DNA of 53,663 nt. Source: Halorhodospira halophila. Its GTDB lineage: Bacteria; Pseudomonadota; Gammaproteobacteria; Nitrococcales; Halorhodospiraceae. The stretch is taken from NCBI RefSeq assembly GCF_016653405.1, contig NZ_NHSN01000042.1, positions 1 to 53,663 of the forward strand. Direction: 5' to 3'. Positions 182 to 25,404 of the stretch are shown here, one piece after another. How positions within the stretch are numbered: position 1 is the stretch's first letter; each line of letters begins with the position of its first letter. A model generated the notes under the pieces. That model was not told the origin of the DNA. It ran no database searches and saw only the letters and a program-made list of their open reading frames with translations. The position numbers and the translations under genes are program-made.

Positions 182-2167
182 TTACGCGATTAGCTGACGA
201 ACTTCGGGGCGCAGGACCTCGAGCAGTGGAGCGATCAGCCCGTGGTGGCGGTACCCGCGCGCATTGCCCTCCGGCCCAAATAGCGCAACGTCCTGCGCTC
301 GCTCCCACGGGAACTGCTGACGCCGGCGCTGCGCCCAGCCCTGGATCTGCGCCACCGGCCCCGGCGGCGCCAGGGCGTGGAGCGGGATCCGCCGCCGTGC
401 CGCCGGCGTCTTGCCGGCTCGGATTTCCACCCAGCACTCGGTGGCATCGACAAAGAGATCGCCGAGGGTCAGCGCGCAGACCTCCGAGGCACGCACACCG
501 GCGTAGAAGCCGAGCGTCAGCGCGGCGGCCCATTGCGCGTAACGCGCATCGTGCTCGCGGCTTACCAGGACGCCGTGGGCGTACTCGAACTCGGCGGGGG
601 TGACGATCGCCGTCCGCGCCGGGGCGTGCGCCGCACCCCCGCGCGTTGTGCTCAGCGCGAACTCGGCCTCGGCCAGCCACCCGCCGGCCTGCTGGCCGTA
701 GCGCAGCAGCTCGAACCAGGTGGTGCGAAAGTGCTCGGCGCTGCGAGGACTCCACCGCCGCGCCGCGACCACGCACCCGGTGACCTCCTCGATGGTCTCA
801 TCGTCCCAGTCGCGCAGATCCAGCACCTCCTCCATGCCCAGCAGCTCCGGTGAGGCGATCCGGCTGTAGTAATCGGCGAGGGTCTGGACCTTGACCCCGT
901 CGCGGAGCAACTTGTCGGCCCCCCAGGCGAGCGCCAGTTGCACGATGCTCGCCGGGTAGCCGAGCGCATCGGCGCGTTCGAGCAGCGCCGTGCACGCGGC
1001 CAGCGCTTCCTCCCGTGCGCGGGCGGGCAGTGTCCCGCGCCCCGTCTGCAGCGCGCGCATCCGGGCGATGAAGGCATCGAGGAGATTGCGCGCACGACGC
1101 GGCCAGTCCTCCGGCCGGGGCATCGGATCGTCGCCGATGGGGCCCGGTTGCGGGCGCTCCACCGCCCCCTCGCCCGCCCCTGTACGGGGGTGGGGCGCCG
1201 GGCGCAGGAGCCGATCCCCAGGCCCGCGCTGCGCGGTCTGCACGGACCAGTCGAGACGGGCACCGGTGCCCGTGCGCGCCGCCGCCGGCAACGGAAACGC
1301 GGCGAGCAGCTCGACCCAGGCCGCCGGCACGCCGTAGGCCAGCGGCAGCAGCCGCCCGGCGTGGGCGAAGCGCTGCCACCCACGGACGGTGGCGCCGGGG
1401 ACCCGGCGCTCACGCTCGAAATCCGCGGCAAAGGCGGCGAACGCATCGCGCAGCCACCGCCGGAGCATGCGCTCATAAGCGCGCACCGCTGCCGCGTCGT
1501 CAGGCGGCGTTGCGCTGACAAGCACCGGGGCGGCCACCAGCCGATCGCCCGCCGCCCGCGGACGCGGGGGCAGGTGCTTGCGGCACGCCTTCGGCGGCCG
1601 GACAGGGTGCACCGCCCCGCTGAAATCCGTCGGCTCGACGGGCAGCGCCAGCGTCCCGTCCCGATCGACATCGGCCCAGCGCAGGCGCGCCAGTGTACCG
1701 ACCATCACGCGTTCGCCCATTCCGACCCGTGTTGTCAGACGCACGGCCAGGGCAAAGAGCCGGTCTGCTGAATCGGTATCAGTGCGCCGGCGCAGCCAGG
1801 GATCCAGGTACGCATCCAGCGCGGCGGCAGTGATCTGACAGCGCAGCTGCTCCGGGCTGACCGCCAGCATCGAGGGCCGGGGCTCGAGGATCGGGGTGAC
1901 CGGCAGGACCGCCTCGATCCGGCCCGTCTGATTGAGCCGCTGCAAAAGCCGCCGCAACCAGGCCCGATGCCGGCGCCTGGATCGGCGCTGCGGATCAAAG
2001 GTCGCCTGCTCCAACGCCCTGAGCCCCGGCGCATCCAGGCGCCCCTGCTCATCGAGCGCCGCCGCGAGGGCATCGACGACCTGCTCCCAATGCGCCGCAT
2101 CCTCAAGGCCCAGCGCGCGGCGCTCCGGCTGCAGGGTTTCGATCAACGTCGTCCGGTCAAAGGACAT
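182..2167 (-). pseudogene. Large tyrosine-recombinase-like protein, third gene of module 1, truncated
   Basis: The 661-residue frame starts at ATG 2167, overlapping the stop of the upstream gene by 11 bases, which argues for translational coupling. A tyrosine-recombinase catalytic half begins near residue 580: the arm-I arginine lies in FYAGVRASEVCALTLGDL and a beta-hairpin lysine in IRAGKTPAARRRIPL. The frame stops about 60 residues later, before any HxxR box, GH motif or tyrosine nucleophile. The comparable gene of the second module (26629-29646) carries all of those and is much longer. The stop lies next to the transposase end at 1-132, so IS insertion probably removed the catalytic C-terminus. 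The N-terminal ~550 residues match no domain I recognise. Alternative: a naturally short accessory subunit. Confidence 0.65.
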
Positions 2168-4505
2168 CGGCAACCCCTTGGGGCTCATGGACCGTCGCAC
2201 CCGCGGCATCGAGCAGCTCCGTGAAGGCCCGGTACACCGCCGCGGCGTCAAAACCCTCGGTACTGCCCGGCGCCCAGACCCCCAGACCCGCGCGGGCGTG
2301 GCCGAGCACGGCATCGACCTGCCGCTGGGCCAAACGCTCACGCAGCACCGTTGCCACCGTGTGTCGCGGGGCATTGCGCGCCTGCCGATCCGGTTCCAGG
2401 CCCGCCTCGCGCAGCGCGGCCTCCAGCCGCGGCTGGGTGAAGAGGCGGCACTCGAGCGTATCGCGGCGAAGACGGACCAGTTCAGCGGGCAGCGCCTGCT
2501 GCGCCGTGGGGCGTTGATCGGTCACCGTGAAACCGCGGCGCTCAAGGAGCTGCGCCACAATCCTGCGCACCCGCTCATGGACCTGCAACTGCTGCTCCAG
2601 CGGACGGCAGACCGGGATCACGCGCCGCTCGCGGTACACCCCGCTCGATTTGTCCGCCAGGTACGCGGCCGGGTGCGCTGCGGCGAGCACACCGCGCTCG
2701 GCGACGACCCACTCGGTGCGCGGCCCGATCGGGCGAGCCCCGGTGGCCAGCAGCCAAACCAGGCTCGTGTAGGCCGCGTGCAGACGAACGACCTGCAGCA
2801 GCTTCTCCGCGCAGCGCGGATCATTCGGGGGGAGCTGGAGTAGATGCGCCCCGACGCCGTCGGCACCCCGGCGCAGACGCCGCAGCCACGGCTCGTAGGC
2901 GGCCGGCGGGATCGCCCGCCGCGACCCGGTCGGTGCCGGCTCCACCGCCTCGGACGACGCCGACTCAAAACGCAGCGCCGCGAGTCGTTGCGCGAGGTCG
3001 GGGTCATCGCCGGCTCGCTGGCCCGCGGCCTGCGCCCATTCGTCGGTGACCGCCTCGAACAATCCCTGCAGCTCGCCGGATGCGAACCGGCGATAGGCGG
3101 CGGGGGCATTCTGCGCCAGCCCGAAGCGCCCCGTCAGCGCACGTGCAGCGACCGCATCACGGGCGTTGGCCTCGATCCATAGTTCGGCGGTTGCGCGCAG
3201 GCGGTCTGCCGTGGGCAGCAGCCCCGGCGTACCGTCGAGGGCACAGCGCAGGCGGCGGTTGATGCGACCCGGTTGGCCCGTGAACGGTGCTTGGTGCGGC
3301 GCATCGGCCAAGGCCTGCGCAATGCCCGCTGGCAGGCGCAACGTCACCTGGCGGTTGGCCCCGGTCCCGACCGCCACCGGTCCATCGAGCAACCGATAGA
3401 CCAAAAGCCCGGCGCTTTCATGCGGCGCCTGATCCTCCGGGGCGCTGCCCGCCCGCTGCAGTGTGGCTAAGCGCTGCGGCGGCAAAGCGGTGGTCAACAG
3501 CAGCCAAGCGTAAGCCCAGTCCAGCGGATCCTTGGCCAGCACCGACAGGGCCTGGACCACGGGCCCGGTCGGTAGCCGGTGGAGATCCGTCGGGGTGTTC
3601 AACACGGACGTGGCGGCCAAGCGCGGGCCGTGGCGCTGCGCGAAGCGATCATCGGCCTCGGTCAGGGCGGAGGGCTGCTCGCGCACCCACGTTTGCGGGT
3701 GATCCGGGTCTGCCGGCTCGGCCTGGCGACGGGTACGGGCATCGCGGCGCGGACGGTAGCGTGCCGACGCCAAGGTGCGCTGCGCCGAATCCCCTTCCCC
3801 GGGCGTGTCTTGCCCCGCCGTCCGGCGTCCGGACGGCGGAGCGCCGCGCTGCCGGTCGGCGCGCTCGAGCAACGGCGCCCGCAGGACCTCCGGATCCGGC
3901 CCGCGCGGGCGTTTGCCCGCGGGCTGATACACCTGGTTGACCCCGACCTGCCGCTGGCCCTGCAAAAGCTCGAAAAACAGCCGGGCATCGTCCTGCTGCT
4001 TCGCATCAAGCGTCATGGCATTCAGCGCCTGCCAACAGACCCGCGCCCCCTCCTCCGGGGCCACGTCGGCGAGCGCCGGCTGACACAACTGCAGGCAGCG
4101 GCGCACCGCGAGCAGTTGGCGATAGTAGATCCGAGCGTTGTCACCAGGGCTGGTGCGGAACCAATCCACCAGCACCCGCCGCGCTGGCGGCTCATTCGGA
4201 AAGACCCGGGTGATGGCCGCATGCAGCGGATACGGCGTCCGGTAGCGCTGGGGATAGCCCTCGGGCAGGCCGAAGGCCCTCACGTGGCTGCGCAGCTGCT
4301 CAAGGGGAAAGCCGGCGGGTGGGCCGTGGTCCTGCGCGAAGAGCAGCAGGCTATCGCGCAGCGCTGCTTGGCAGACCGGCGGCAGGTGCGTCGCCACCAC
4401 GGCCATGATCGCATCCCGCAGCCGGATATCACCCAGGTCACGCAAGCGCTCCCGCCACCGCGCGCATACGGCGTCAGGAAGCAGCGTGCCTTCGCCGTCA
4501 ACCAT
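2157..4505 (-). CDS. Large tyrosine-recombinase-like protein, second gene of module 1
   Basis: 782 residues from ATG 4505, whose start overlaps the preceding stop by 8 bases. The catalytic-type domain is C-terminal: arm-I arginine in LLATGARPIGPRTEW (about residue 590), lysine in YLADKSSGVYRERRVIPV, the arm-II box NAPRHTVATVLRERL (about 712) and LGHARAGLGVWAPGS (about 731). Where a related protein in module 2 has a tyrosine 11 residues after the GH histidine, this one has glycine. The nearest tyrosine is about 24 residues on (AAAVYRAF), so strand-cleavage ability is doubtful. The N-terminal ~550 residues are unrecognised and may bind DNA. Three overlapping genes with at least two recombinase-like products recall RIT elements, Tn554 tnpABC and gamma-mobile-trio islands, but these proteins are much larger than RIT ones. 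Confidence 0.7.
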   Translation of the reverse strand: MVDGEGTLLPDAVCARWRERLRDLGDIRLRDAIMAVVATHLPPVCQAALRDSLLLFAQDHGPPAGFPLEQLRSHVRAFGLPEGYPQRYRTPYPLHAAITRVFPNEPPARRVLVDWFRTSPGDNARIYYRQLLAVRRCLQLCQPALADVAPEEGARVCWQALNAMTLDAKQQDDARLFFELLQGQRQVGVNQVYQPAGKRPRGPDPEVLRAPLLERADRQRGAPPSGRRTAGQDTPGEGDSAQRTLASARYRPRRDARTRRQAEPADPDHPQTWVREQPSALTEADDRFAQRHGPRLAATSVLNTPTDLHRLPTGPVVQALSVLAKDPLDWAYAWLLLTTALPPQRLATLQRAGSAPEDQAPHESAGLLVYRLLDGPVAVGTGANRQVTLRLPAGIAQALADAPHQAPFTGQPGRINRRLRCALDGTPGLLPTADRLRATAELWIEANARDAVAARALTGRFGLAQNAPAAYRRFASGELQGLFEAVTDEWAQAAGQRAGDDPDLAQRLAALRFESASSEAVEPAPTGSRRAIPPAAYEPWLRRLRRGADGVGAHLLQLPPNDPRCAEKLLQVVRLHAAYTSLVWLLATGARPIGPRTEWVVAERGVLAAAHPAAYLADKSSGVYRERRVIPVCRPLEQQLQVHERVRRIVAQLLERRGFTVTDQRPTAQQALPAELVRLRRDTLECRLFTQPRLEAALREAGLEPDRQARNAPRHTVATVLRERLAQRQVDAVLGHARAGLGVWAPGSTEGFDAAAVYRAFTELLDAAGATVHEPQGVADVL

Positions 4506-5391
4506 GCTCCATCCCCGATGCGTGTTCCGCGAGACGCTGGCGCACTCGCTCGGCAAGCCTCTCCACTTTTTGCCCGTCATCCCAGGGATACTGCGGATCA
4601 GCCATAGTGCGCACGATCTTCGGTGCCAAGCCTTCACCGGCTTTATCCTGGGCGGGTGCCAGCGCGTCCACAACCTCTTGAAGGGTCGGCAACCCGTATT
4701 GCTCGCACAGCCTTAATGCATCCCACCGCGCCAGAGCAGCCTGCCAGATCGACGCGTCCACCTGGGTGCTGCTGAGCACCTGAGGGACCGTGCTGTCTGC
4801 CGACCCTTCATCCATGGTCGTTTCGCTTCGAGCAGGTTCCCGCGCGGCTTGCGCGGTGTTGACGCTGCTTCGAGGACTGCGGTACTTCTCCAGCGACGAC
4901 CGACTTACGGTGTGCCGGAGAATCAATCGCTCCTGCTTGGCCGTCAGCTGACCATCCCCGGACAGATCGAAGAGCTTGCGACGGATCACCGAGCGCAGGT
5001 GCGCATCCGAGCGCAGCCAGTCGATCGCCTCCCGCCAGCTGACGCGCGATGTCAGCAGTGCCGGCTGCACAGATCCGCAGAAAAAACGCAGTAGCGCCTC
5101 CAGTTCCGGCGCCTCCAGATCGCCCTTGCGGATCGCAAGCGCTCTGAAGCGGGACTTTGGATGCACAACTCCAGCTTCCTGCGCCACGACGAGCGGATTG
5201 AGAAGGTCTCGTCGCTCGTCGGTATCGAACAGGATTGGCGGGGTAGCCGGCAAGTGAAGCCCGTCAGCCCGCGGCGCTCCGCGCACCGGGTCGATGCGCT
5301 CGGGCGGCAAAACCTTCGGCGCCTCAACCAACACCTCTTGAGCGGGAATCCGCACCGACTCGTAGAGGATGATCTCACCCAGTTGACTCAT
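4498..5391 (-). CDS. First gene of recombinase module 1, unknown function
   Basis: 297 residues. ATG 5391 is preceded by a strong Shine-Dalgarno site (GGAGGT, 7-base spacer), which decides the start over an in-frame ATG 16 codons upstream. No signal peptide, membrane segment or recombinase motif is visible. The middle (about residues 60-150) is rich in charged helical sequence (LEAPELEALLRFFCGSV, REAIDWLRSDAHLRSVIRRK), followed by a low-complexity linker and another helical block ending WDDGQKVERLAERVRQRL. It leads a leftward operon whose next two genes overlap end to end and encode recombinase-like proteins, so an accessory, DNA-binding or regulatory role in the same recombination machine is likely. 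I do not recognise the family. Confidence 0.6.
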   Translation of the reverse strand: MSQLGEIILYESVRIPAQEVLVEAPKVLPPERIDPVRGAPRADGLHLPATPPILFDTDERRDLLNPLVVAQEAGVVHPKSRFRALAIRKGDLEAPELEALLRFFCGSVQPALLTSRVSWREAIDWLRSDAHLRSVIRRKLFDLSGDGQLTAKQERLILRHTVSRSSLEKYRSPRSSVNTAQAAREPARSETTMDEGSADSTVPQVLSSTQVDASIWQAALARWDALRLCEQYGLPTLQEVVDALAPAQDKAGEGLAPKIVRTMADPQYPWDDGQKVERLAERVRQRLAEHASGMEHG

Positions 5392-5755
5392 TGCAGTTAC
5401 CTCCGAACCAATCACCCGTTTCGGAGGCGGGGCTCGCACCCGCCTCGTCTCCTCGCGCCGAGCGGATCACTGGTGTGAGCGCGCTCCTGCGCTGAGGATC
5501 AAGGCGATTGTCGAGTCGGCTCGGAGCCAGGTATGCCGTCAATGACCCTGAATTGAGGGGCATTCGTGCATCAGCCTTGGGGCGGGCGCGGGCGAGCGCC
5601 TTGGAGCTTGCCCCGCCCCACCGCGTGTGATGGAATTGCCGTTCACAAACTGAACACCCCTAGCGAGACGGGCCTGCCCAGGCGTCACCGTCCCGGCGGT
5701 AGCGTGCCCAAACGCCCGCCCCTGTTATTCACCGTAAAGCCGTTCAGGAGCCCCT
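5392..5755. other. Divergent intergenic region / leader of polysaccharide operon
   Basis: These 364 bases separate the leftward recombinase module from the rightward polysaccharide operon, so they must hold a promoter for each. I see no convincing -35/-10 pair. A GC-rich inverted repeat (GGGGCGG at about 5580 and CCGCCCC at about 5612) could form a hairpin in the leader. The ops element lies at 5695-5707. No reading frame in it looks real. Confidence 0.5.
5695..5707 (+). promoter_or_regulatory. ops element (RfaH recruitment site)
   Basis: GGCGGTAGCGTGC matches the core of the operon polarity suppressor element exactly. In enterobacteria this sequence pauses RNA polymerase and recruits RfaH, which suppresses Rho termination in long LPS, capsule and conjugation operons. 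It sits 48 bases before the first start codon of a ~21-kb co-directional polysaccharide operon, the position expected for function. The match is seen directly; dependence on RfaH is inference. Confidence 0.85.
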
Positions 5756-7525
5756 TTGCTCAAGAAACTCCTCAGCCTGCTCAGCCGTCAGGAGAAGCGC
5801 CGCGGCGCCTTGGTCCTCGGGATGGTTGTCGTCATGGCCCTGCTCGAGACGGCCGGGGTCGCCTCGGTGATGCCGTTTTTGAGCGTGCTCGGTAACCCAG
5901 AGGTAGTAGAGACCAACCCCGTCCTCAACCAGCTCTATGTCGGCCTCGGCTTCGAGTCGGTGGACGCCTTCCTCATGGCCCTCGGCGCCGGCGCCTTCGT
6001 GCTGATTGTCTTCTCGGCCGCGTTTCGCTCGCTGACCATCTACGCCATGAACCGCTGGGCGTGGATGCGCATGCACAGCCTCAGCGAACGGCTGCTGGAG
6101 ACCTACCTGCGTCAGCCCTACGCCTACTTCCTGAATCGCCACAGCGGCGACATGGGCAAGAGCATCCTGACGGAGACCCAGCAGCTCCAGCAGCAAGTCA
6201 TCAAGCCGGGGCTCGATGCCCTAGCCTACGGCGTGGTGGTCATCGCCATCATCACCCTGCTGGTGGTCATCGATCCCGTGCTGGCGGCCGGCGTCGCTGC
6301 CGTGCTCGGCGGTATGTACGCGCTCATCTACTGGGGCGTCCGCGGCTTCCTGGATCGCATCGGCCGCGACCGGGTCCGGGCCAACCAGGAGCGCTTCCAG
6401 GCCGCCGGGGAGGCCCTGGGCGGGATCAAGGACATCAAGCTGCTCGGCCGCGAGCACGCCTACCTGTCGCGCTTCCGCGGGCCATCGATCCGCTTCGCCA
6501 AGCACCAGGCCACCAGCCAGACGCTCTCCCAGGTGCCGAAGTTCCTCATCGAGGCGGTGGCCTTCGGCGGCATCATCGCCCTAACCCTGGTGCTCATGGC
6601 CACCCACGGCGGGGCGACCGGCGGCGGGCTCGGCGAGGTGTTGCCGGTGCTCGGGCTCTACGCCTTCGCCGGCTACCGGATGCTCCCCGCCGCGCAGCAC
6701 GTTTACCAGGGCCTGGCCAAGCTGCGCTTTGGCGGCGGCGCGGTGGACGCGGTCTACGACGACCTGCACCGCCGCCAGGCGCTGGCCGAGATCCGCAAGC
6801 AGCCGCCGGCGCCGCTGGTCCCGCAACGAGAGGTGGCGCTGGAGAACGTCCACTACACCTACCCCAACGCCCCGGCGCCGGCGCTGCAGGGGATCGATCT
6901 GCATATTCCGGTGGGCAGCTCGGTGGGGCTGGTGGGCAGCACCGGCGCCGGCAAGACGACGTTGGTGGACGTGATCCTCGGGCTGCTTCGACCCACCGAA
7001 GGCGCGATCACCGTGGACGGCGAGCCGGTGACGGACACCAACCTGCGCGCCTGGCAGCAGGCGCTGGGGTACGTGCCGCAGGAGATCTTCCTCACCGACG
7101 CCTCGGTGGCCGAGAACATCGCCCTGGGCGTGCCCCCGGAGCGCATCGACCACGAGCAGGTGGAGCGCTGCGCGCGCATGGCGCAGCTCCACGACTTCGT
7201 CGTCCACGAGATGCCGCAGCAGTACGAGACCGTCGTCGGCGAGCGCGGCGTGCGCCTATCCGGCGGCCAGCGCCAGCGCATCGGCATCGCCCGGGCTCTC
7301 TACCACGATCCGAGCGTCCTGGTCTTCGACGAGGCCACCAGCGCCCTGGACAACGTCACCGAGAAAGCCGTGATGGAGGCGATTGACGCCCTCCAGAACC
7401 AGAAGACCATCATCCTCATCGCCCACCGGCTGAGCACCGTGCGCAACTGTGATCAGGTGGTGCTGCTGGAGAAGGGGCAGATTGCAGACAAAGGCGCGCT
7501 CAGGGATTTGGATATTACTTTCTAG
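5756..7525 (+). CDS. ABC transporter, fused permease-ATPase (flippase/exporter type)
   Basis: 589 residues starting at TTG 5756, five bases after CAGGAG (5745-5750). The N-terminal ~330 residues form an exporter-type membrane domain with about six hydrophobic segments. The C-terminal ATPase has a Walker A site (GSTGAGKTT), the signature LSGGQRQR, a Walker B site (VLVFDEATSALD) and the H-loop IAHRLS. The layout and a motif such as GGIKDIKLLGRE match lipid-linked oligosaccharide flippases like PglK. As first gene of an operon with a Wzy-like polymerase and no visible Wzx, it could flip the lipid-linked repeat unit across the inner membrane. The C-terminus stops abruptly at ADKGALRDLDITF, exactly where the DNA turns AT-rich, so the last ~15-20 residues were probably replaced at a recombination joint. 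Confidence 0.85.
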   Translation: MLKKLLSLLSRQEKRRGALVLGMVVVMALLETAGVASVMPFLSVLGNPEVVETNPVLNQLYVGLGFESVDAFLMALGAGAFVLIVFSAAFRSLTIYAMNRWAWMRMHSLSERLLETYLRQPYAYFLNRHSGDMGKSILTETQQLQQQVIKPGLDALAYGVVVIAIITLLVVIDPVLAAGVAAVLGGMYALIYWGVRGFLDRIGRDRVRANQERFQAAGEALGGIKDIKLLGREHAYLSRFRGPSIRFAKHQATSQTLSQVPKFLIEAVAFGGIIALTLVLMATHGGATGGGLGEVLPVLGLYAFAGYRMLPAAQHVYQGLAKLRFGGGAVDAVYDDLHRRQALAEIRKQPPAPLVPQREVALENVHYTYPNAPAPALQGIDLHIPVGSSVGLVGSTGAGKTTLVDVILGLLRPTEGAITVDGEPVTDTNLRAWQQALGYVPQEIFLTDASVAENIALGVPPERIDHEQVERCARMAQLHDFVVHEMPQQYETVVGERGVRLSGGQRQRIGIARALYHDPSVLVFDEATSALDNVTEKAVMEAIDALQNQKTIILIAHRLSTVRNCDQVVLLEKGQIADKGALRDLDITF

Positions 7526-7637
7526 CGTTTTACCCAACGCGAACGCCCGTCTGTCGGAGTGTTTTCTTAAAAAAGACCTCCCAATGCACGGCTCACCGAA
7601 ACTGACATTCACCCATGAACGACCAGCCCTTCTTCCT

Positions 7638-8396
7638 ATGATCGTATTACATCAACACCAACTTATTTTTTTAAAACCACAGAAAGTAGCAGGAACCTCC
7701 TTCGAGATCGCGCTTTCTAGGTATGCAGCCGCAAGCGACATAATTACACCCTTCAGAAACGAAGACGAGTTAATCAGAGAAAAAAACCGATTCCGTGGCC
7801 CACAAAACTACAAACACACACTAAAAGAAACACTACAGTTACCGCTATCTCGCATAGCGAAATCACTCTATAAGAAGCAAGGCTTCCGACCCCCAAAGTA
7901 TTTTAGCCATATGCCCGCAGAAGAGGCAAAGCAAGCTCTCGGCGAGACCATCTGGAATAAATACAAGAAAGTATCGATAATACGAAACCCCTTCGATGTC
8001 GCGGTTTCATTTTACTTTTGGGAGAACAAGGACAAAAACCTAAAACCCGCCTTCGAGGACTGGGCAACGAAAAACCTTTGCAGGGTTGCATCAAACAATT
8101 ACTTCTACCAAATCAACAACAAAGACATCATAGACTTCTATATACGATACGGTAAACTTCACGACGACCTTCACCGCCTTGAATCTGAGGAATCCGGATT
8201 ACACGGCCTATCCGAAACGTTTGAACGTATTACTGCAAAATCCGGTTACAGGCCGGCTGAAGCAACCACTACTGACCTGTTCAGCAAGGCACCAAAATCC
8301 TTTAAATTAATATATGAACTTCACAGGGAGCAAATTGAAAGATTTAATTTTGATGTACCTCAAACTACTGACGAGCGCCCCCGCCAACCCGTGTAA
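7638..8396 (+). CDS. Sulfotransferase family protein
   Basis: 252 residues from ATG 7638. The start was chosen because members of this family begin with a short hydrophobic strand running straight into the PAPS-binding loop, here IVLHQHQLIFLKPQKVAGTS. An alternative ATG at 7584 adds 18 unlike residues, and neither start has a clear Shine-Dalgarno site. The second co-substrate site is visible as VSIIRNPFDVAVSFYF. The predicted reaction transfers sulfate from PAPS to a hydroxyl, most likely on a sugar of the polysaccharide made by this operon. The DNA is AT-rich compared with the upstream ABC gene, and the gene begins just past the compositional break, so it was probably brought in by transfer. 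Confidence 0.75.
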   Translation: MIVLHQHQLIFLKPQKVAGTSFEIALSRYAAASDIITPFRNEDELIREKNRFRGPQNYKHTLKETLQLPLSRIAKSLYKKQGFRPPKYFSHMPAEEAKQALGETIWNKYKKVSIIRNPFDVAVSFYFWENKDKNLKPAFEDWATKNLCRVASNNYFYQINNKDIIDFYIRYGKLHDDLHRLESEESGLHGLSETFERITAKSGYRPAEATTTDLFSKAPKSFKLIYELHREQIERFNFDVPQTTDERPRQPV

Positions 8397-8420
8397 TACA
8401 GCCCACCTTACCAATAAAGC

Positions 8421-9272
8421 ATGGCGCCAGACATCAAAAACATCGCAAACAAGATTGCAAACCGGCATGGATTTCATTTCAATGTACAGCGACTCCCGTA
8501 TTACCTTGATTTACGCAACATAGAAATCCCAACACGCGCAATCGATTACTACTTGACACGAGATGTTTTAGTCTCTTTGCCTCTCGGGGCTGGGCGCGCT
8601 TTACCCCGAGGCGTTCTCGGCTCCAATTCGCAACACCCCTATATCTCCGCGATATCTCGATTCTTAGAATTTAGAAATATCAGTAATTACTCAGTCCTGA
8701 GAGATGAGCTGGCAAATAGCCTAGGGCGCGCTACATGGAATTCAGCTGCGGAACTATTAAGCCTTCCCGATCATGATATCCTTACCCGACAACCACCATG
8801 GGCAGCCCTTCTACCTTGGCAGGAGCACAATTTAGACCAGTGGAAGGAAAAAGTATCAAGGTCCGTGCGCACTGAAAACAAACGCGAGGGATACGACCTT
8901 GATGTGACGACCGGCGGATGGGCGTGGACGGGCCCCGTTAACGACGAGAAGGTCCAGATAGAGTCCAGACGGCTGTACCGCGTCTTTTTCAGCATACTTG
9001 AAAACGGTTACAAACGCTCTGCGGCCCCAGGCGGAGACCCACCGGTTAGCATCTTATTACGGGAAGATGATGAGTGGCGCTGGCAACCGCATACGAACCA
9101 ACATCGCCTCTGCGTTTTATCAGCTCTTGGATACTCGGAAGTACCGGTACGGGTCAAGAGGATTGTGCGACGTGAGGACGCCCCCTACTGGCCCAACGTG
9201 GTAAATGGCTTTTATTCCAAGAAGCAGGCCCTTCAAATATTTGATGACATTTTTGACAACGGGCTCGAGTAG
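8421..9272 (+). CDS. ParB-like-fold protein of a polysaccharide locus, function unknown
   Basis: 283 residues from ATG 8421 with no good ribosome binding site. The N-terminal ~170 residues are unrecognised. The C-terminal ~110 contain a pattern typical of ParB/sulfiredoxin-fold proteins: a strand (PPVSILLRED), then HTNQHRLCVLSALGYSEVPV, equivalent to the GxHR helix, then the tail GFYSKKQALQIFDDIFD. Related hypothetical proteins occur in O-antigen and capsule loci. Because some ParB-fold proteins are small-molecule kinases (SerK, SbnI), a role in phosphorylating a polysaccharide precursor is conceivable, but that is inference. It lies 24 bases after the sulfotransferase, in the same AT-rich segment. 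Confidence 0.55.
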   Translation: MAPDIKNIANKIANRHGFHFNVQRLPYYLDLRNIEIPTRAIDYYLTRDVLVSLPLGAGRALPRGVLGSNSQHPYISAISRFLEFRNISNYSVLRDELANSLGRATWNSAAELLSLPDHDILTRQPPWAALLPWQEHNLDQWKEKVSRSVRTENKREGYDLDVTTGGWAWTGPVNDEKVQIESRRLYRVFFSILENGYKRSAAPGGDPPVSILLREDDEWRWQPHTNQHRLCVLSALGYSEVPVRVKRIVRREDAPYWPNVVNGFYSKKQALQIFDDIFDNGLE

Positions 9273-9298
9273 GGATCATTTTTTATCAAAGGAACAAC

Positions 9299-10534
9299 AT
9301 GAACAGACCCACTTATACTCCGCCTGAGCCTTGGACCTCGTACGATTTTCGGATCAACCAGGTCTACTGGAGTAAACGGCCTACCAGCGAGCGTGATCAG
9401 ATTCGGTTGCGTAATCTTAGGGACCTTTCAAACGCCCTTAGCCAGCACAACATCATTCACTGGCTCTACGGAAAGACCCTTCTCGGTGCTTGGAAGAATC
9501 AGCAATTACCTGATGACCACGATGACGACATCGGGATCTTCGTCGGACAGAGACCACCGCTGCTAGACCTCATAGAACGCTACCTTAAAAAAGACGGATT
9601 CCGGCTCATTCGTAACACCGAGGACATCATATCGGTTGAGAGGGAATACCGTTACATTGATATTTGTTTATTCAGAAGGAAAGGGCGCAAGCGTCTTGGC
9701 TATAAGAAGCGACATCATCCGCGTCACCACTTTGAGCAGCTTGAGCAAGTTAAAGTGGACGCGTCCCCTTTTCCCGCCCCGGGCGACAGTGGCACCCTGC
9801 TGGAAAGAACCTACAAGTCACAGTCCAAGTTAGGAGATGCTACCGGACGCGGCTTGCGAAAAGCAGCTCAGATCCGCCACCCCAAAAAGGTGAAGGACAA
9901 GACGCAATCACTCCTAGCGAATCGCGCGCCGCGACACGGCCTTGGTAGGGCAGCTCTTAGATTGAATATGCTGACCCCCTTCCAGGTTCGTTATAAGATT
10001 CTTTCCGAGTCCGATTTTCGAAACCTCCATCTTGAGCCGTCCGAATCATTCAATTGGCGTTGGCGCAAGCGCCATCTTGACCTCGTCACTGACAATGGCC
10101 GCCTCTCAATGATCGGCGATATCGTTGACCATCTTGCAGACCCCCAGGTTCAAGAAAAGATCAACACGGCTGTAGTCGAGAGCGACACAACCTCTCCTTT
10201 CGCGGATCCGGCCAACCTAGACATTGACTTTTGGTGGAGCGGGAACAATTACTTCTGGTATTGCGTTTGGTATCAGTTCCGTCACAACGTGCACCCTTAC
10301 GCCAGGGCGAATGAGTACATCCGGAATATCGGGGACCCACCCCTTTTCAGTAGCCGCTACTATGAAACTCTACCCGAGATGGGCGAACACGATATTGATA
10401 GACTCCTAAAAAATAATCCAATTGAGGTTACGAACGGGGCGATCACCGGAGGGAAGCATCGCGCGCTTGCTATGGTTGGGCGTTTGGTTTTTGGAAAATC
10501 CTATAGGCCCGTGCCGATCATAGAGCTTTCCTGA
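9299..10534 (+). CDS. LicD-like phosphotransferase with ParB-like C-terminus
   Basis: 411 residues from ATG 9299 with AAGGAA seven bases upstream. Residues ~40-130 resemble the LicD/fukutin nucleotidyltransferase fold: [14 protein letters not shown] followed by the acidic cluster [12 protein letters not shown], then YRYIDICLF. LicD proteins move phosphocholine or similar phospho-groups onto sugars. The last ~60 residues ([20 protein letters not shown], then RPVPII) look like the GxHR segment of ParB-fold proteins, a pattern shared with the preceding gene. The central ~150 residues are basic and unassigned. Base composition is intermediate between the AT-rich and GC-rich blocks. The likely role is decorating the polysaccharide with a phosphate-containing group. 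Confidence 0.6.
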
Positions 10535-10556
10535 CAGGCCACCGGAAGAGGCGCAC

Positions 10557-11675
10557 ATGCATAAGACAGCTCTCATCACCGGCATCACCGGCCAGGACGG
10601 CAGCTACCTCGCCGAGTTCCTGCTGTCCAAAGGCTACGAGGTCCACGGCATCAAGCGCCGGGCGTCGTCGTTCAACACCGAGCGCGTCGATCATATCTAC
10701 CAGGATCCGCACGACCCGGATCAGCGCTTCATCCTGCACTATGGGGATTTGACCGACACCTCGAACCTGACGCGGATCCTCCAGGAGGTCCAGCCGGACG
10801 AGGTCTACAACCTCGCTGCGCAGAGCCACGTGGCGGTCAGCTTCGAGGCGCCGGAGTACACGGCGGACGTCGACGCCCTGGGCACGTTGAGGCTGCTCGA
10901 GGCGATCCGCCTGCTCGGCATGGAGAAGCGGACCCGCTTCTACCAGGCCTCGACCTCGGAGCTCTACGGCCTGGTGCAGGAGACGCCGCAGAACGAGGCC
11001 ACGCCGTTCTACCCGCGCAGCCCCTACGCCGCCGCGAAGCTCTACGCCTACTGGATCGTGGTCAACTACCGCGAGGCGTACGGCCTCTACGCCTGCAACG
11101 GCATCCTCTTCAACCACGAGTCGCCGCGCCGGGGCGAAACGTTCGTCACGCGCAAGATCACCCGCGGCCTGGCCCATATCGCCCAAGGGCTCGACGAGCG
11201 CCTCTACCTAGGCAACCTGGACGCCCTGCGCGACTGGGGCCACGCGCGGGACTACGTGCGCATGCAGTGGCTGATGCTCCAACAGGAGCAGCCCGATGAC
11301 TTCGTGATCGCCACCGGGCAGCAGTGCTCAGTCCGCGAGTTCGTCCGCCTAAGCGCCCAGGAGCTTGGCATCGAACTGGCGTTCCACGGCGAGGGCGCCG
11401 AGGAGTACGCCGTTGTCACCGCCGTCCACGGCGACGACGCCCCGGAGGTGGAGGTGGGCGATGTCATCGTCGAGGTCGATCCGCGCTACTTCCGCCCCAC
11501 CGAGGTGGAGACCCTGCTCGGCGATCCCAGCAAGGCCCGCCGGGAGCTCGGCTGGGAGCCGGAGATCAGCCTCGAGGCGATGATCCGGGAGATGGTCGCC
11601 GAGGACCTCGACCAGGCCAAGCGCCACGCCCTGCTCAAGGGCCACGGCTACGACGTCCGCATCAGCCGGGAGTGA
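10557..11675 (+). CDS. gmd: GDP-mannose 4,6-dehydratase
   Basis: 372 residues, the usual length for Gmd. It converts GDP-D-mannose to GDP-4-keto-6-deoxymannose in the cytoplasm, the first step to GDP-L-fucose. The NAD(P)-binding motif [11 protein letters not shown] is at residues 8-18, the catalytic threonine region is STSELYG, and the tyrosine/lysine pair is in [30 protein letters not shown] is characteristic of the family. It is followed four bases later by fcl, then gmm and manC, the same grouping as in colanic acid clusters. GC-rich composition returns here after the AT-rich insert. Confidence 0.97.
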
Positions 11676-11679
11676 TCGG

Positions 11680-12651
11680 ATGAGCGAACGCCCGCAACGC
11701 ATCTTCGTCGCCGGCCACAAGGGGATGGTCGGCGCCGCCCTCGTCCGCCGGCTGCAGGCCCAGGACGGCTACGAGGTCACCACGCGCGATCGCACTGATC
11801 TGGATCTGCGCGACCAGGCGCAGGTTGAGGCCTTCCTGCGCGAGGCGCAGATCGACGCTGTCTACCTGGCCGCCGCCCGGGTGGGTGGCATCCATGCCAA
11901 CAACACCTACCCCGCCGACTTCATCTACGACAACTTGGCCATCGCTACCAGCGTGATCCACGCCGCGCACCAGGCCGACGTCCAGCACCTGCTCTTCCTC
12001 GGCTCGTCGTGCATCTACCCGCGCGAGGCCGAGCAGCCGATGGCCGAGGAGGCGCTGCTCACCGGGCCGCTGGAGCCGACCAACGAGCCGTACGCGGTGG
12101 CGAAGATCGCCGGGATCAAGCTTTGCGAGAGCTACAACCGCCAGCATGGGCGCGACTACCGCAGCGTCATGCCCACCAACCTCTACGGCCCCGGCGACAA
12201 CTTCCACCCCGAGAACAGCCACGTCATCCCGGCCCTGCTGCGCCGCTTCGACGAGGCAAAGGAGCGAGGCGCACCGGAGGTCACCATTTGGGGCAGTGGC
12301 TCGCCGCGCCGCGAGTTCCTGCACGTCGACGACCTCGCCGCCGCCTGTCAGCACGTCATGGAGTTACCGCGCGCCGAGTACGAGGCGCACACCGAGCCGC
12401 AGCGCAGCCACCTCAACGTCGGCACCGGCGTGGATCTCACCATCCGCGAGCTGGCCGAGACCATCCAGGCGGTGGTCGGCTACGAGGGGCGGCTGCGCTT
12501 CGACACCAGCAAGCCGGATGGAGCGCCGCGCAAGCTCCTCGACGTCTCGCGGCTCCAGAGGCTCGGCTGGCAGGCGGAGATCCCGCTGCGTGAGGGGTTG
12601 TCGCAGACCTACGACTGGTACCGCCAGCACCGTGACGAGGCGCGCGGCTGA
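11680..12651 (+). CDS. fcl: GDP-L-fucose synthase
   Basis: 323 residues, standard length. It epimerises and reduces the Gmd product to GDP-L-fucose, using NADPH. The glycine-rich motif [15 protein letters not shown] is near residue 11; the catalytic serine/cysteine segment is GSSCIYP, and the tyrosine/lysine motif is [35 protein letters not shown] is typical of the family. ATG 11680 lies four bases after the gmd stop, indicating co-translation. Confidence 0.97.
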
Positions 12652-12654
12652 GCG

Positions 12655-13107
12655 ATGTGGCTACCAGCTGAGACCTTCCGGCAGGTCATCGCTGCGACGC
12701 CGCTGATCTCCATCGACCTGCTGATCCACGACGGCGCGGATCGTTACCTGCTTGGAGAACGCACCAACCCGCCGGCACAGGGGTGGTGGTTCGTGCCCGG
12801 CGGGCGGGTACGGAAGGGCGAATCGCTGGACGAGGCGTTCCGTCGTGTGACGCAGAGCGAGCTCGGCCTGTCGCTCGAGCGCGCGGACGCGGAGTTCGTC
12901 GGCGTCTACGAGCACTTCTACGACGAGTCAGCCGTCGACCCGCAGACCTCAACCCATTATGTAGTCCTCGCCCACCGCTGCCAGCTCGCCGGGCTTGAGC
13001 CAACAGCGCTCCCCCGCGATCAGCACCAGTCGCTGGCCTGGTGGCCCCGCGAGCGTGTGCGCTCGGCAGCGGACGTACACCCCTACACCCAAGCCTATTT
13101 CCTGTGA
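12655..13107 (+). CDS. gmm: GDP-mannose mannosyl hydrolase (Nudix)
   Basis: 150 residues. Gmm enzymes hydrolyse GDP-mannose or GDP-fucose to GDP and the sugar, probably balancing the nucleotide-sugar pools. The modified Nudix box is visible at about residues 48-73 (GGRVRKGESLDEAFRRVTQS, then ELGL), with the altered spacing known for this subfamily. WWFVPGGR and the C-terminal block HQSLAWW also fit. It starts three bases after the fcl stop and lies between fcl and manC, as in colanic acid operons. Confidence 0.92.
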   Translation: MWLPAETFRQVIAATPLISIDLLIHDGADRYLLGERTNPPAQGWWFVPGGRVRKGESLDEAFRRVTQSELGLSLERADAEFVGVYEHFYDESAVDPQTSTHYVVLAHRCQLAGLEPTALPRDQHQSLAWWPRERVRSAADVHPYTQAYFL

Positions 13108-13112
13108 GCACC

Positions 13113-14561
13113 ATGCCGTCTTCGGATTCCCTGACCCTCCAGCCGGTCATCATGGCCGGCGGCTCCGGCACACGCCTGTGGCCGGCCTCCCGAGAGCTTT
13201 ATCCCAAGCAGTTCCTGCCGCTGCTCGGCGAGGAAAGCATGCTGCAGCAGACGGTGAGACGCCTGGAGGGACTGCGGCACGCCACGCCGTTGTTCGTCTG
13301 CAACGAGGAGCACCGTTTTCTTGCCGCGGAGCAACTGCGCCAGTGCGGGCTTGAGAGTGCCCCGCTGCTTCTCGAGCCCGAGGGACGCAACACGGCCCCG
13401 GCCATCGCCCTCGCCGCGCTGCACGCCACCCGCAACGGCGACGATCCGTTACTTTTCGTCCTTCCCGCCGACCACGCCATGGAGGACACAGCCGCCTTTC
13501 ATCGAGCTGTAGACGACGCAGCCGCGCTAGCTGCCGAGGGGCACCTCGTCACCTTCGGCGTAGTGCCGACGAGCGCGGAGACGGGGTACGGCTACATCAA
13601 GCAAGGCGCACCACTGCCGGCAGGCGGGTACGCGGTCCGGCGCTTTGTAGAAAAGCCGGACGCGGCCACCGCTCAGCATTACGTGGACGACGGCGGTTAT
13701 CTCTGGAACAGCGGGATGTTCCTGTTCCGCGCCTCAACCTACCTTGCCGAACTTGACCGCTTCGAGCCTGACGTACTAAACGCTTGCCGTCAGGCCCTGC
13801 CACAGACATCGACGGACGCCGCGACGGATACTCTCTACCCCTTCCTGCGCATCGACGCCGACGCGTTCTGTCAAAGCCCGGGCATCTCCGTCGATTACGC
13901 CCTCATGGAGCGCACCGAACACGCCGCGGTGGTACCCCTGGACGCCGGTTGGAGCGACGTCGGCTCCTGGTCTGCGCTCTGGGCGATCAGCGAGCAAGAC
14001 CACGAAGGCAATGTCGCCAGGGGCGATATCCTTACCGAAGGCGTTCAGAACAGCTTCATGGAAGCTGAGGACACCCTGCTCACCTGCCTAGGAGTAGAGA
14101 ATCTGGTGATCGTAGCCACCAAAGATGCCGTACTCGTAGCCGATCGCCACCGGGTGCAGGATGTTCGCAACCTTGTACACGAGCTTAAACGCCAGGGCCG
14201 CACCGAGCACATCAACCACCGCGTCGTGTACCGACCCTGGGGCTGTTACGAGTCCATCGACACTGGCCACCGCTACCAGGTCAAGCGCATCACCGTGAAC
14301 CCCGGGGCGCGGCTATCAAAGCAACTGCACCACCATCGGGCTGAGCATTGGGTTGTAGTTAAAGGTACGGCGCAGGTTGAGAAAGGCGAGCGCGAGTACT
14401 TGGTAACCGAGAATGAGTCGACTTTCATCCCCGTTGGGCAGGTTCATAGCCTTGAGAACCCTGGCAGCATCCCTCTTGAGCTTATTGAGGTCCAGTCAGG
14501 AAGTTATCTCGGGGAAGATGATATCCTGCGGATCTCCGACCTATATGGGCGTAAAGAATGA
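13113..14561 (+). CDS. manC: Mannose-1-phosphate guanylyltransferase / mannose-6-phosphate isomerase
   Basis: 482 residues from ATG 13113. An in-frame GTG at 13104, overlapping the gmm stop, is a possible alternative. The N-terminal guanylyltransferase domain has the signature GGSGTRLWPASRELYPKQF and the substrate loop FVEKPD. The C-terminal cupin isomerase domain has PWGCYESID, PGARLSKQLHHHRAEHW and FIPVGQVHSLENPG. It supplies GDP-mannose for Gmd. No phosphomannomutase (manB) is present in the window, so mannose-1-phosphate must come from elsewhere. Its stop overlaps the next start (ATGA). Confidence 0.96.
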   Translation: MPSSDSLTLQPVIMAGGSGTRLWPASRELYPKQFLPLLGEESMLQQTVRRLEGLRHATPLFVCNEEHRFLAAEQLRQCGLESAPLLLEPEGRNTAPAIALAALHATRNGDDPLLFVLPADHAMEDTAAFHRAVDDAAALAAEGHLVTFGVVPTSAETGYGYIKQGAPLPAGGYAVRRFVEKPDAATAQHYVDDGGYLWNSGMFLFRASTYLAELDRFEPDVLNACRQALPQTSTDAATDTLYPFLRIDADAFCQSPGISVDYALMERTEHAAVVPLDAGWSDVGSWSALWAISEQDHEGNVARGDILTEGVQNSFMEAEDTLLTCLGVENLVIVATKDAVLVADRHRVQDVRNLVHELKRQGRTEHINHRVVYRPWGCYESIDTGHRYQVKRITVNPGARLSKQLHHHRAEHWVVVKGTAQVEKGEREYLVTENESTFIPVGQVHSLENPGSIPLELIEVQSGSYLGEDDILRISDLYGRKE

Positions 14562-15358
14562 CTCAACCAGCGCTATCAATCATCACGATTTGCTTCGAAA
14601 ACCCCAAAGAACTTAAAGAAACACTAGAAAGCATCTATCCAAAGTATCAGCCAGGCGACATAGAGCAAATCGTCATCGATGGGTCAAGGGACAACAGCTG
14701 TCAAAAAATGATAGCACCCCACCGGTGGATCGACATTGTTGTGCACGAAGAGGATGAAGGTCGATATGATGCTATGAACAAGGGCATCACCCATTCCAGC
14801 GGGAGGTATCTTTTGTTTTTAAATAGCGGAGATTTTATCCACCCCCGATGCGACCTAAAAAAAATAATTGATCGGCTTTACAAGGCACCACCGGAACACT
14901 TATTTTACGGCGACTCCTTAAAGAGAGTAGGCGACACAGATTTCCTATACACCGTCCCACGCGAAAAACAAAAAATAGACATTCGAAAAGGGTGCGCACC
15001 CTCACATCAGGCTGTTTTTTTTCCGTCTGATTACTGCAAAACAAACCGCTACGACACATCCTTACCAATCTCAGCCGACACGAAGTTAATGACTCGTGCC
15101 TTTCAAGACCTTGGATCAGAGCATCTAAACGAAAAGATCGCAATTTTTTCTATTGGTGGCGCGTCTAATACGTGGCACTCCCTCGCCGAGGTCATCGACC
15201 ACTGGCAACAGCGCAGGGCGGCACGCGGCTATTCTGCACTCCGCTACAGCCCCAAACTAGCGAAGAGTCTAATAAAATACTCACTAATGCGCACTTTAGG
15301 GCCAAATCAATATTACAAACTTAGCCTCCCTGTTCGTTTATCATTGTTCAGAAAATAA
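14558..15358 (+). CDS. Glycosyltransferase family 2
   Basis: 266 residues with a 4-base ATGA overlap with manC. This is a GT-A fold enzyme: the N-terminal strand is LSIITICFENPKELKETLES, followed by EQIVIDGSRDNS, the nucleotide-sugar region EEDEGRYDAMNKGI and the acidic motif LFLNSGDFIHP. This is the WcaE-like branch of GT2, which adds a sugar to the lipid-linked repeat unit on the cytoplasmic face. Base composition falls sharply within a few dozen bases of the start, although the gene overlaps a GC-rich partner, so the recombination joint lies close to the manC/GT boundary. Confidence 0.88.
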   Translation: MTQPALSIITICFENPKELKETLESIYPKYQPGDIEQIVIDGSRDNSCQKMIAPHRWIDIVVHEEDEGRYDAMNKGITHSSGRYLLFLNSGDFIHPRCDLKKIIDRLYKAPPEHLFYGDSLKRVGDTDFLYTVPREKQKIDIRKGCAPSHQAVFFPSDYCKTNRYDTSLPISADTKLMTRAFQDLGSEHLNEKIAIFSIGGASNTWHSLAEVIDHWQQRRAARGYSALRYSPKLAKSLIKYSLMRTLGPNQYYKLSLPVRLSLFRK

Positions 15359-15616
15359 CACCACAATCATAAATTATGGACCATTTCTTGCCGAGCGCCC
15401 CTACCAGAATGGCTAGTCTCCCCGTATTTCAGAAAGGCGCTCCATTACCCCGCCGTAATTATGACTACGCCTAGCTCAACTTCATAATTATCCAGAGGCT
15501 TCGGCGCTACGCCAACCTATTTACCCGCCTGTGCTGAATAATCCGAGATTACGCGGTATGCACCATGAGACTAAGTAAACCGATCATTCTGTATTCATTT
15601 TTTAGACGCAATCAAA
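15359..15616. other. AT-rich intergenic gap inside the operon
   Basis: 258 bases with no convincing gene. A 22-codon frame starting at ATG 15565 runs into the next gene in another frame and is probably meaningless. No clear promoter, hairpin or repeat was recognised. The gap is unusual in an otherwise tightly packed operon and may be a recombination scar. Confidence 0.4.
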
Positions 15617-16879
15617 ATGAGCAATCGTTTTAGCATAATTGTTTTGGCCATAATCTTTTTACCTGCATTAGGAGTCATTCCGTATGGGGGTATGCGCCTG
15701 GTTGATGCAATGATCCTTTTTTCTAGTCTTCTTTTTTTTGGCGTCACCGCCACCACGGCTAGGCTCCACCTCAAAAGCAGAGATCTTGCTGTAACTTTCT
15801 TTTTGATTGCAGCTATAGCCATTTTTTCCTTCTTCCCTCTAGTCGATCCTTCAACACAGTCCATTGCAGCATTATACTTTCTGCGCGGCGCCCTTATTGT
15901 GCTAGTAATGTGCGCTCTTTATCATTTCACGCACAACACAATTCTAATGAAAGGCTGGGCCACGCTAACTTCTCTTTTTATCTTTTTTGCTATCATCGAC
16001 TATTTGCATCATGCCTACTTAGGATCGTCTCCGTTCGGGCTCTCTGGTATTTATGGGCGCTCTGAGGGAACAATACTGCGTCTTGACGGATTCATGAACC
16101 CAAACTATCTTTCGCATTGGGTGGCAATAACGAGCATCGCGATACTAGCATTTATAACAGATAACACGCCACCCAGAAAAGACAGGTTATTACTTTGGAC
16201 AACTTTTTTCATTATCAGCTTAGGGGCCATCCTTACAAACAGCCGCACCGCGCAATTTGCCTTAGTCGTTTCGATTCTGTTCTTGATCTTGCACCATTCA
16301 CTACAGTCAAAAATAACAAAAAACATATCAACTGTCGCCTTCTTTGCCGCACCTGTTTTTATCGGGCTTGCACTAAGTCCAACCTTATATTTCATTGCGA
16401 TAAGCGATTCCATCCCATACCTAGCCGCCGACCGTTTCTTTCGAAGCAGTGAGTCACTGTCTTTTTTTCTTAACCTTCCCCTAAGTGACATGTTATTTGG
16501 GGTTGGAGGTAACATTTACCTTCAAATGGACGACGGAATGTCTATTCATAACGGTTACTATCAGCTTTTAGTGGATCACGGCATTATTGGTTTATCACTT
16601 TTTCTGCTGTGCGTCTACTATATTATCTACAGATCCATTACAAGGCATGGACGCTTAAGACCCGAGGTTTTCGCACTGTTTAGCTCTCTTATGTATGCAG
16701 CTGCGAATGACACCTTTATAACCGCCCATTTTTGGCTTATATTTGGGCTCCTTGTGGCTACGACTGTAACAACAAGCAAAGACGAACGCCAACATCAAAA
16801 AAGCAAACCTATCACAACTGTTTCCCCTCCTACAAAGTCGGGATCATCTAATACTCCGTTGATACGCACGATGATCTGA
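15617..16879 (+). CDS. O-antigen polymerase-like (Wzy/WaaL type) membrane protein
   Basis: 420 residues dominated by about ten to twelve hydrophobic membrane segments, with a larger loop before residue 330 and a hydrophilic tail from about 385. Arginine-containing loop text such as LTNSRTAQFALVVS and the segment MLFGVGGN, then HNGYYQLLVDHGIIG, is characteristic of the Wzy_C/O-antigen ligase superfamily. These use a lipid-linked glycan on the periplasmic side. Polymerase is favoured over ligase because it sits inside the biosynthesis operon, but sequence alone cannot separate them. The DNA is AT-rich. Confidence 0.75.
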   Translation: MSNRFSIIVLAIIFLPALGVIPYGGMRLVDAMILFSSLLFFGVTATTARLHLKSRDLAVTFFLIAAIAIFSFFPLVDPSTQSIAALYFLRGALIVLVMCALYHFTHNTILMKGWATLTSLFIFFAIIDYLHHAYLGSSPFGLSGIYGRSEGTILRLDGFMNPNYLSHWVAITSIAILAFITDNTPPRKDRLLLWTTFFIISLGAILTNSRTAQFALVVSILFLILHHSLQSKITKNISTVAFFAAPVFIGLALSPTLYFIAISDSIPYLAADRFFRSSESLSFFLNLPLSDMLFGVGGNIYLQMDDGMSIHNGYYQLLVDHGIIGLSLFLLCVYYIIYRSITRHGRLRPEVFALFSSLMYAAANDTFITAHFWLIFGLLVATTVTTSKDERQHQKSKPITTVSPPTKSGSSNTPLIRTMI

Positions 16880-17049
16880 CAGACTTGCAGGGTGCTGAGA
16901 AGCTCAGTTCTCGAGACCGCTGGAGGCCCTGATCTTGCCCAGTATTACCGAGATCGACGGCGATGGTGTAGTATTCTATACGGGTTCTAAAGGAAAACAT
17001 CCCATCACATGAAAACGTTCCAACACTCTTTACCAAAAAGGATCATCAA
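16880..17049. other. Intergenic gap, no feature recognised
   Basis: 170 bases between the polymerase and the methyltransferase, of higher GC content in its first ~90 bases than the genes around it. I see no reliable promoter or terminator. The composition step suggests another recombination joint. Confidence 0.35.
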
Positions 17050-19013: not shown

Positions 19014-19151
19014 AGGTGTCGTCGATACCAACGATCACCGTCAAAATGTAAATTGCATCTAAGACCGCGACAAAATAACAACATGTGCATGCATTAATGT
19101 GTCGACGGATTATTACGAAGCGACCACTTCGGAGCCAAGGAACAACTGCTT

Positions 19152-22426: not shown

Positions 22427-22488
22427 TCGGTACAATGCCGCCGCCAATGGGTCTCATGGACTGAACCTCACAGCTGGAGATACGGCTT

Positions 22489-23730: not shown

Positions 23731-23739
23731 GGGGTCAGG

Positions 23740-25401: not shown

Positions 25402-25404
25402 CCG

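Follow-up and report, generated by a model that had tools for sequence, protein, structure and literature searches.

An exact ops element in a genus-wide leader of Halorhodospira: probable recruitment of RfaH before a polysaccharide operon

Introduction

Does an exact ops element before a long polysaccharide operon recruit the elongation factor RfaH in Halorhodospira, a salt-loving photosynthetic bacterium? RfaH has mainly been studied for a few enteric surface and virulence operons, the E. coli RfaH/ops regulon including waaQ, rfb, kps and hly. In this non-pathogenic halophile the same signal is part of a leader copied throughout the genus, which stands also before toxin-antitoxin-like modules and, in a second form, at CRISPR loci; the comparison suggests that one elongation factor may serve more kinds of genes than expected. 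Three questions thereby become testable, namely how ops can be read without residue R73 of RfaH, whether the JUMPstart stem-loop has a role in RfaH loading and whether RfaH can protect the transcripts of CRISPR arrays.

The stretch of DNA analysed here (53,663 nucleotides; the window) is contig C42 of the 2.86-Mb draft genome of Halorhodospira halophila. We consider it very probable, from sequence comparison, that positions 5695-5707 are a RfaH recruitment site serving antitermination over the polysaccharide operon, and that the leader around them is copied as a unit.

The ops site and its leader

An earlier, sequence-only reading of the window had noted an exact ops match at the expected distance before the first gene of the operon, and both parts of this statement hold. 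The element GGCGGTAGCGTGC agrees with ops in 13 of 13 bases at 5695-5707 of the + strand and is the sole exact copy in the window, where 0.03 copies are expected from dinucleotide shuffles (3 of 100 shuffles contain one). As in the E. coli regulon, it is the non-template strand of the leader that carries the 13 bases, and a long polysaccharide operon follows, here with 49 nt between the last base of ops and the TTG start codon (5756) of the first gene; the corresponding distance is 41-254 nt in 19 sibling leaders that have a called gene behind an exact ops (83 nt or less in 13 of them), and 83 and 75 nt for waaQ and rfb of E. coli, respectively. Exact copies number three in the host genome, versus none of the reversed pattern, and 27 versus three in nine Halorhodospira genomes, 23 of the 27 falling inside one main leader. 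When one mismatch is allowed, the host genome contains 18 sites, four of which (that of the window and three on contig C13) lie within this common leader; none was found around the other 14, and the one-mismatch copy at 3752 stands without it.

The conserved leader, a Halorhodospira JUMPstart-like leader of 117 bp, occupies 5606-5722 of the + strand, as judged from its matches to the three C13 leaders and to 24 further places in the genus. With ops at its end, it is followed by the TTG start and its Shine-Dalgarno sequence (AGGAG, 5746-5750, 5 nt before TTG); with this sequence at the first gene, there is no obvious need for RfaH to recruit ribosomes. On the same strand, a putative -35 element (TTGCCC, 5608-5613), of which TTGCC is kept in the leader alignment, is followed after 17 nt by a putative extended -10 element (TGA TGGAAT, 5628-5636), with TG and the first and last two bases of the hexamer largely conserved. 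The promoter is our own reading of these conserved bases; a consensus promoter scanner found no sigma-70-like promoter at 5380-6000, which was counted against the RfaH reading. Near the expected transcript start, a + strand palindrome (GTTCA-N5-TGAAC, 5641-5655, alignment columns 42-56) is perfect in the window and may be an operator or a 5′ hairpin. The latter option is unsupported by pairing, and the palindrome was discarded as an RNA hairpin, since 20 of 27 aligned sequences mispair at one position (a C.A mismatch) and slid controls score higher covariation. Pair counts define a hairpin (GACGG-GCCT...AGGC-GTCA-CCGTC) at 5667-5692 (+), ending 2 nt before ops. The order throughout the genus is TTGCC, 17 nt, TGN with a weak -10, palindrome, hairpin, 1-2 nt, ops and a conserved CCCRAACGC.

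A leader model built from the four leaders of the host genome, without structure (R1), matches 28 places in eight of the nine Halorhodospira genomes and none in three other genomes of the family. Ops is reached by 26 of the 28 matches, 23 of them with all 13 bases, and ops bases 2 and 4-12 are invariant in all 26. An exact pattern for the leader end recovered nine stretches among genome contig records (from which those near the window's own were possibly excluded), only in Halorhodospira and two Ectothiorhodospiraceae MAGs; in viral contigs it recovered none.

RfaH of the host

The genome contains two NusG-domain genes, nusG in a ribosomal-protein neighbourhood (C15) and rfaH on C32. The sequence-only reading had proposed looking for rfaH in the host and had named its absence as fatal to an antitermination role; RfaH is present besides NusG, scoring 157.4 bits with TIGR01955 (cut-off 144.5). 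With the stricter RfaH equivalog model NF006534 the score is 114.2, below the cut-off of 124, which was counted against the assignment. All nine Halorhodospira genomes, and 30 of 54 genomes of the order, encode a RfaH above the TIGR01955 cut-off. A search of plasmids with RfaH gave 196 records, all below 60% identity.

According to PMC5995543, E. coli RfaH contacts ops through K10, H20, R23 and R73. Among the nine RfaH proteins of the genus K10 is kept, H20 is replaced by N in every case, R23 is kept in two, and R73 is replaced by T, L, Q or Y in all nine, so that the complete E. coli-type set is not found. Position 70, which is N in E. coli and part of the ops interface there, is Arg in 33 of 33 distinct aligned proteins. 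As R73 is absent from 15 of these 33, a RfaH can do without it and still coexist with leaders carrying a perfect ops; a candidate substitute for R73 in ops reading is R70. Unlike the E. coli regulon, that of Halorhodospira would thus operate with a RfaH lacking H20 and R73 and carrying an invariant R70, and with a Shine-Dalgarno sequence at the first gene. The placing of R73 late in RfaH evolution, described in PMC7593976, fits the R73-less proteins of the genus. A predicted structure of the host RfaH, computed with eight genus sequences, was discarded (mean pLDDT 57.4, below 50 in the C-terminal part).

From these parts we infer a promoter, a pause, RfaH binding, antitermination and counter-silencing, in the following order. 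Transcription would start about 50 nt upstream of ops, and the nascent RNA would fold into the hairpin; RNA polymerase would then pause in ops at U11 (E. coli numbering), the Y-1G+1 of the pause being kept in the window ops. The host RfaH would bind the non-template strand, displacing NusG, and the RfaH-modified polymerase would traverse the long and partly AT-rich operon without Rho- or H-NS-assisted arrest. By virtue of the tandem leader copies described below, toxin-antitoxin-like cassettes, the MarR_EPS gene and the polysaccharide operon would each start with their own ops.

Hairpin, pausing and the JUMPstart motif

The hairpin of the genus has a stem of 5-6 bp and an upper stem of 4 bp, with a bulge of 4 nt on the 3′ side. 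Paired bases fill 93.1% of the alignment cells, both sides have changed at three of ten pairs, and the covariation score is 0.111 versus 0.079 in shuffles, none of 500 shuffles scoring as high; this lends the hairpin moderate support, since related sequences can beat shuffles without any structure. The 117-nt leader transcript, folded as a whole, is no more stable than its shuffles (z -0.52). Halorhodospira stems mostly have energies of -8 to -16 kcal/mol, compared with -5.4 for waaQ.

A stem-loop abutting ops is the trait of the JUMPstart RNA reported by Weinberg et al. 2010 (PMC2864571), and it is present in the Halorhodospira leaders. As in the Rfam family RF01707, the 3′ strand of the stem ends right before ops, 1 nt away in the Rfam consensus and 1-2 nt in Halorhodospira leaders folding as drawn; unlike in RF01707, the stem is larger and in two parts, with the 4-nt 3′ bulge, and the leader sequence is unrelated. 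The window leader scores 12.4 bits with RF01707 (gathering score 35), and no match at the gathering score was obtained in loci L011, L070, L072 and L073. An Rfam scan of the leader gave nine weak matches, all far under their gathering scores; that with the best E-value, NLPC-P60 RNA over 5602-5700 (20.2 bits, cut-off 53.7, E 0.22), was taken as chance.

For sites outside the genus, 23 leader-like and 18 coding ones, compared first (12 ambiguous ones set aside), gave mean z values of -1.25 versus -0.11 (p 0.0015), and a larger set of 34 leaders and 19 coding sites, some of them classed by eye, gave -0.90 versus -0.17 (p 0.013), with four of the 34 leaders individually at p<=0.05. Three duplicates were dropped from the larger set, and 13 ambiguous and two E. 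coli sites were kept apart; for hairpin anchors placed beyond ops G1, the element itself is a confounder. A hairpin adjoining ops would therefore be a tendency outside the genus rather than a rule.

The distance from the stem base to U11 is 11-13 nt, and for hairpin-stabilised pauses PMC12288461 gives a hairpin-to-3′-end spacing of 11-12 nt, with values of 10-13 nt observed. This spacing, together with the lack of R73 in the RfaH of the genus, favours the best-surviving rival explanation, improbable in our judgement, that ops acts simply as a consensus pause, which the hairpin may strengthen and which times RNA folding or NusG action, with no recruitment of RfaH. However, G5 and T6, which are read by RfaH, are unneeded for pausing in E. 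coli according to PMC5995543, yet they are invariant in 26 of 26 leaders, and the E. coli rfaQ pause is described in PMC9291695 as NusA-independent, with hairpin changes shortening its half-life only 1.4-fold. In PMC11001881 the E. coli ops complex is set apart from hairpin pauses, and the comparison outside the genus is weak evidence for a role of the hairpin. Given the stronger stems of the genus, its leader may possibly have a hairpin-assisted pause; for E. coli itself the published data do not support one. RfaH recruitment remains the preferred reading.

The polysaccharide operon and its neighbours

By homology searches the first gene of the operon (5756-7525, +) encodes an ABC transporter, PglK/MsbA-like. 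The same gene is found behind the EPS leader, directly or after other genes, in six other fetched loci, five from the genus (L072, L073, L074, L076 and L078) and one from outside it (L190). The rest of the cluster (7449-26577, +), delimited by homology and composition and including AT-rich blocks, comprises gmd, epimerase, NUDIX, manC, glycosyltransferase, O-antigen ligase-like, FkbM methyltransferase, wecB-/wecC-like and heparinase-like genes. Between 5756 and 26577, 17 ORFs lie on a single strand with gaps of at most 258 bp. Terminator-like sites are in no excess in the cluster (16 found, 19.9 expected); promoter-like sites on both strands number 18 versus 7.1 expected, and internal starts are therefore possible.

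The AT-rich genes that had been said to be added inside the operon do lie there, with 45-52% G+C at 7449-10534 and 43-47% at 14558-19013, against 60-69% in the other operon genes; they may have come in after the leader. The RfaH-type antitermination of this operon of about 21 kb, which had been claimed along with them, is strengthened by the RfaH gene, the conserved leader, the 17 ORFs on one strand and the lack of a terminator excess; the support is comparative in kind, and on that footing RfaH control of the 21-kb operon may be called well supported. As in the E. coli regulon, RfaH is encoded elsewhere in the genome and H-NS-family genes, here two, are present; given these genes and the counter-silencing by RfaH described for E. 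coli CFT073 in PMC9765446, a similar effect can reasonably be supposed here.

Upstream, sequence comparison delimits a module of three overlapping genes (182-5439, - strand), 94-96% identical in H. abdelmalekii and in both genomes divergent from the ops leader. The gene at 182-2374 is tyrosine-recombinase-like and cut by an insertion sequence; its weak phage-integrase match is the only family match among the three, and PADLOC found nothing in the recombinase-like genes. The whole looks like a multi-recombinase mobile module.

Tandem leaders and their cassettes

The leader of the window is not a solitary one, a point missed by the sequence-only reading, which had correctly recognized an ops leader: it is one of at least four in the genome, three of them on C13, and part of a tandem array. 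The end of C13 and the start of the window lie in the two halves of one recombinase-like gene, intact in H. abdelmalekii, and C13 8840-9433 and positions 207-5999 of the window have their counterparts side by side in L076. C13 therefore appears to abut the window, its three leaders probably lying just upstream with the insertion sequence in between.

Leaders follow each other in tandem, in one common orientation, in eight fetched loci, 13 of 15 adjacent pairs being 0.7-3.2 kb apart and the other two, with inserted genes, 5.4 and 7.4 kb. Of the 26 leaders with ops, 11 are followed by toxin-antitoxin-like pairs (nucleotidyltransferase/HepT or similar; RHH or FitA-like with PIN), six by MarR_EPS, two directly by the ABC transporter and two by a DUF4351 protein; in the other five, what follows has no assignment or is cut off where the contig ends. 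These assignments have Pfam/NCBIfam support for representatives and otherwise were made by eye, from similarity or position; some partners, such as L070:3089-3580, have no Pfam match. Such leaders, tandem, several per genome at one locus and with toxin-antitoxin-like genes behind them, set Halorhodospira apart from the E. coli regulon. As in the cassettes of chromosomal integrons, arrays of small toxin-antitoxin-like modules share one repeated element; unlike there, the repeat is a promoter-leader and no attC, each cassette carries its own start signal, and no integron integrase was seen.

Homology between leaders often stops at about -90/-55 and at +21 to +27 from ops, and behind one and the same upstream cassette and leader the genes can differ from genome to genome (L070 6611 and L072 9794 are alike from -400 to +35), which implies that cassettes have been shuffled at the leader. 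These two features, and the tyrosine-recombinase-like gene that adjoins the leader in two genomes, could be taken to mean that the leader is kept and copied chiefly as a recombination site, a cassette boundary with ops as a passenger. We judge this very unlikely: the boundaries are those of a conserved functional unit and are hence explained by ordinary homologous recombination, no recombinase gene separates the array from the operon in L072, L074 and L078, and ops is kept in unrelated leaders outside the genus. What we propose instead, from the alignments, is a movable unit of the genus in which promoter, hairpin and ops would be copied together in tandem.

Toxin-antitoxin systems are named among rfaH gene neighbours in PMC7593976. 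The literature search brought up, among the matches listed, no paper reporting an ops leader in front of toxin-antitoxin cassettes or of a CRISPR array, and it found none treating Halorhodospira together with RfaH. As far as these searches go, the tandem, cassette-bearing leaders and the CRISPR leaders are new; the RfaH-type leader as a kind was already known.

A second leader at CRISPR loci

Of the four ops sites that the genus has outside the main leader, two are part of a second leader family (model R2) with five full copies, two in H. abdelmalekii (L198:294-11793 and L211) and three in genome G002 (L203:2322-2732, L204:2267-2678 and L215:1625-2397), and none in the host genome. Each of the three G002 leaders precedes a CRISPR array, at a distance of 232 nt from the first repeat; the arrays comprise 3, 3 and 8 repeats of 36 nt, and behind one of them come csm6 and a type III-A operon. 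The ops of these leaders agrees in 12 of 12 bases and then has G for C at base 13 (12/13 overall). In H. abdelmalekii a 15-repeat array precedes one copy (ops 13/13), and csm6 and a type III-B operon follow it; near the other copy there is no repeat and no recognised gene. The two species share the first 12 bases of ops (12/12), the remaining leader being 47-59% identical between them; a strong stem lies about 40-70 nt upstream of ops.

The boxA/Nus complex antiterminates CRISPR arrays, as cited in PMC12691694. Like that system, the second leader could shield a long noncoding array transcript from Rho; unlike it, the signal is ops and would point to RfaH, away from a Nus/SuhB complex. A wider reading may be offered as a tentative possibility, rather doubtful as a whole: that ops and RfaH form a general licence for foreign DNA in Halorhodospira, RfaH control being conferred by the tandem leader on toxin-antitoxin-like cassettes and polysaccharide operons and by the second leader on CRISPR arrays and type III cas operons, where it would replace boxA-type antitermination, with Arg70 taking the place of R73 in ops reading and the abutting hairpin making a two-part pause signal that would separate true ops from accidental intragenic ones. 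Intragenic ops sites of E. coli CFT073 are described in PMC9765446 as failing to load RfaH.

Downstream of one ops-CRISPR leader of G002, two adjacent genes (L204:5233-8572) have DUF262-like N termini, with partial matches to the PADLOC models HEC-06/Orf5/SspE, and a Tn3-family transposase gene (L204:3066-4838, partial match) stands between them and the CRISPR array.

ops beyond the genus

Exact ops sites number 63 in 54 genomes of the order, versus 18 for a control pattern, and in a sample of 370 genomes of the class they are present in 82. As these 18 control matches illustrate, 13-mers arise in G+C-rich genomes; a chance match in the window, or a trace of descent with no present function, is nevertheless untenable for practical purposes, because the entire leader is conserved rather than the 13-mer by itself, the genus count is far above that of its control, and ops is kept in the second, unrelated leader, the flanks of which are no more than 47-59% identical between two species.

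Outside the genus, exact ops precedes MarR_EPS-like, PglK-like transporter, sugar-nucleotide and toxin-antitoxin-like genes. The end of rfaH lies 195-295 nt before ops in three genomes (L190-L192), with an antitoxin-like/PIN pair following rfaH and ops in L192. In L177, and likewise in its relative L189, rfaH is followed in turn by a small HTH gene, ops, two nucleotidyltransferase pairs and a sugar dehydrogenase, and in L173 two ops sites are followed by nucleotidyltransferase/HepT genes.

Three further arrangements may be recorded. In L173 (G035:C127), C-terminal fragments of RfaH are repeated beside the two ops sites, which suggests a duplication of the rfaH end together with ops. In genome G169 (L184:3806-4398), some 80 nt separate an exact ops from the rfaH gene downstream, an arrangement that would place rfaH under its own control. 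Finally, in genome G008 (L196:1965-5568), an exact ops in a different leader precedes rmlD-rmlB-rmlA-rmlC-like genes, named by eye.
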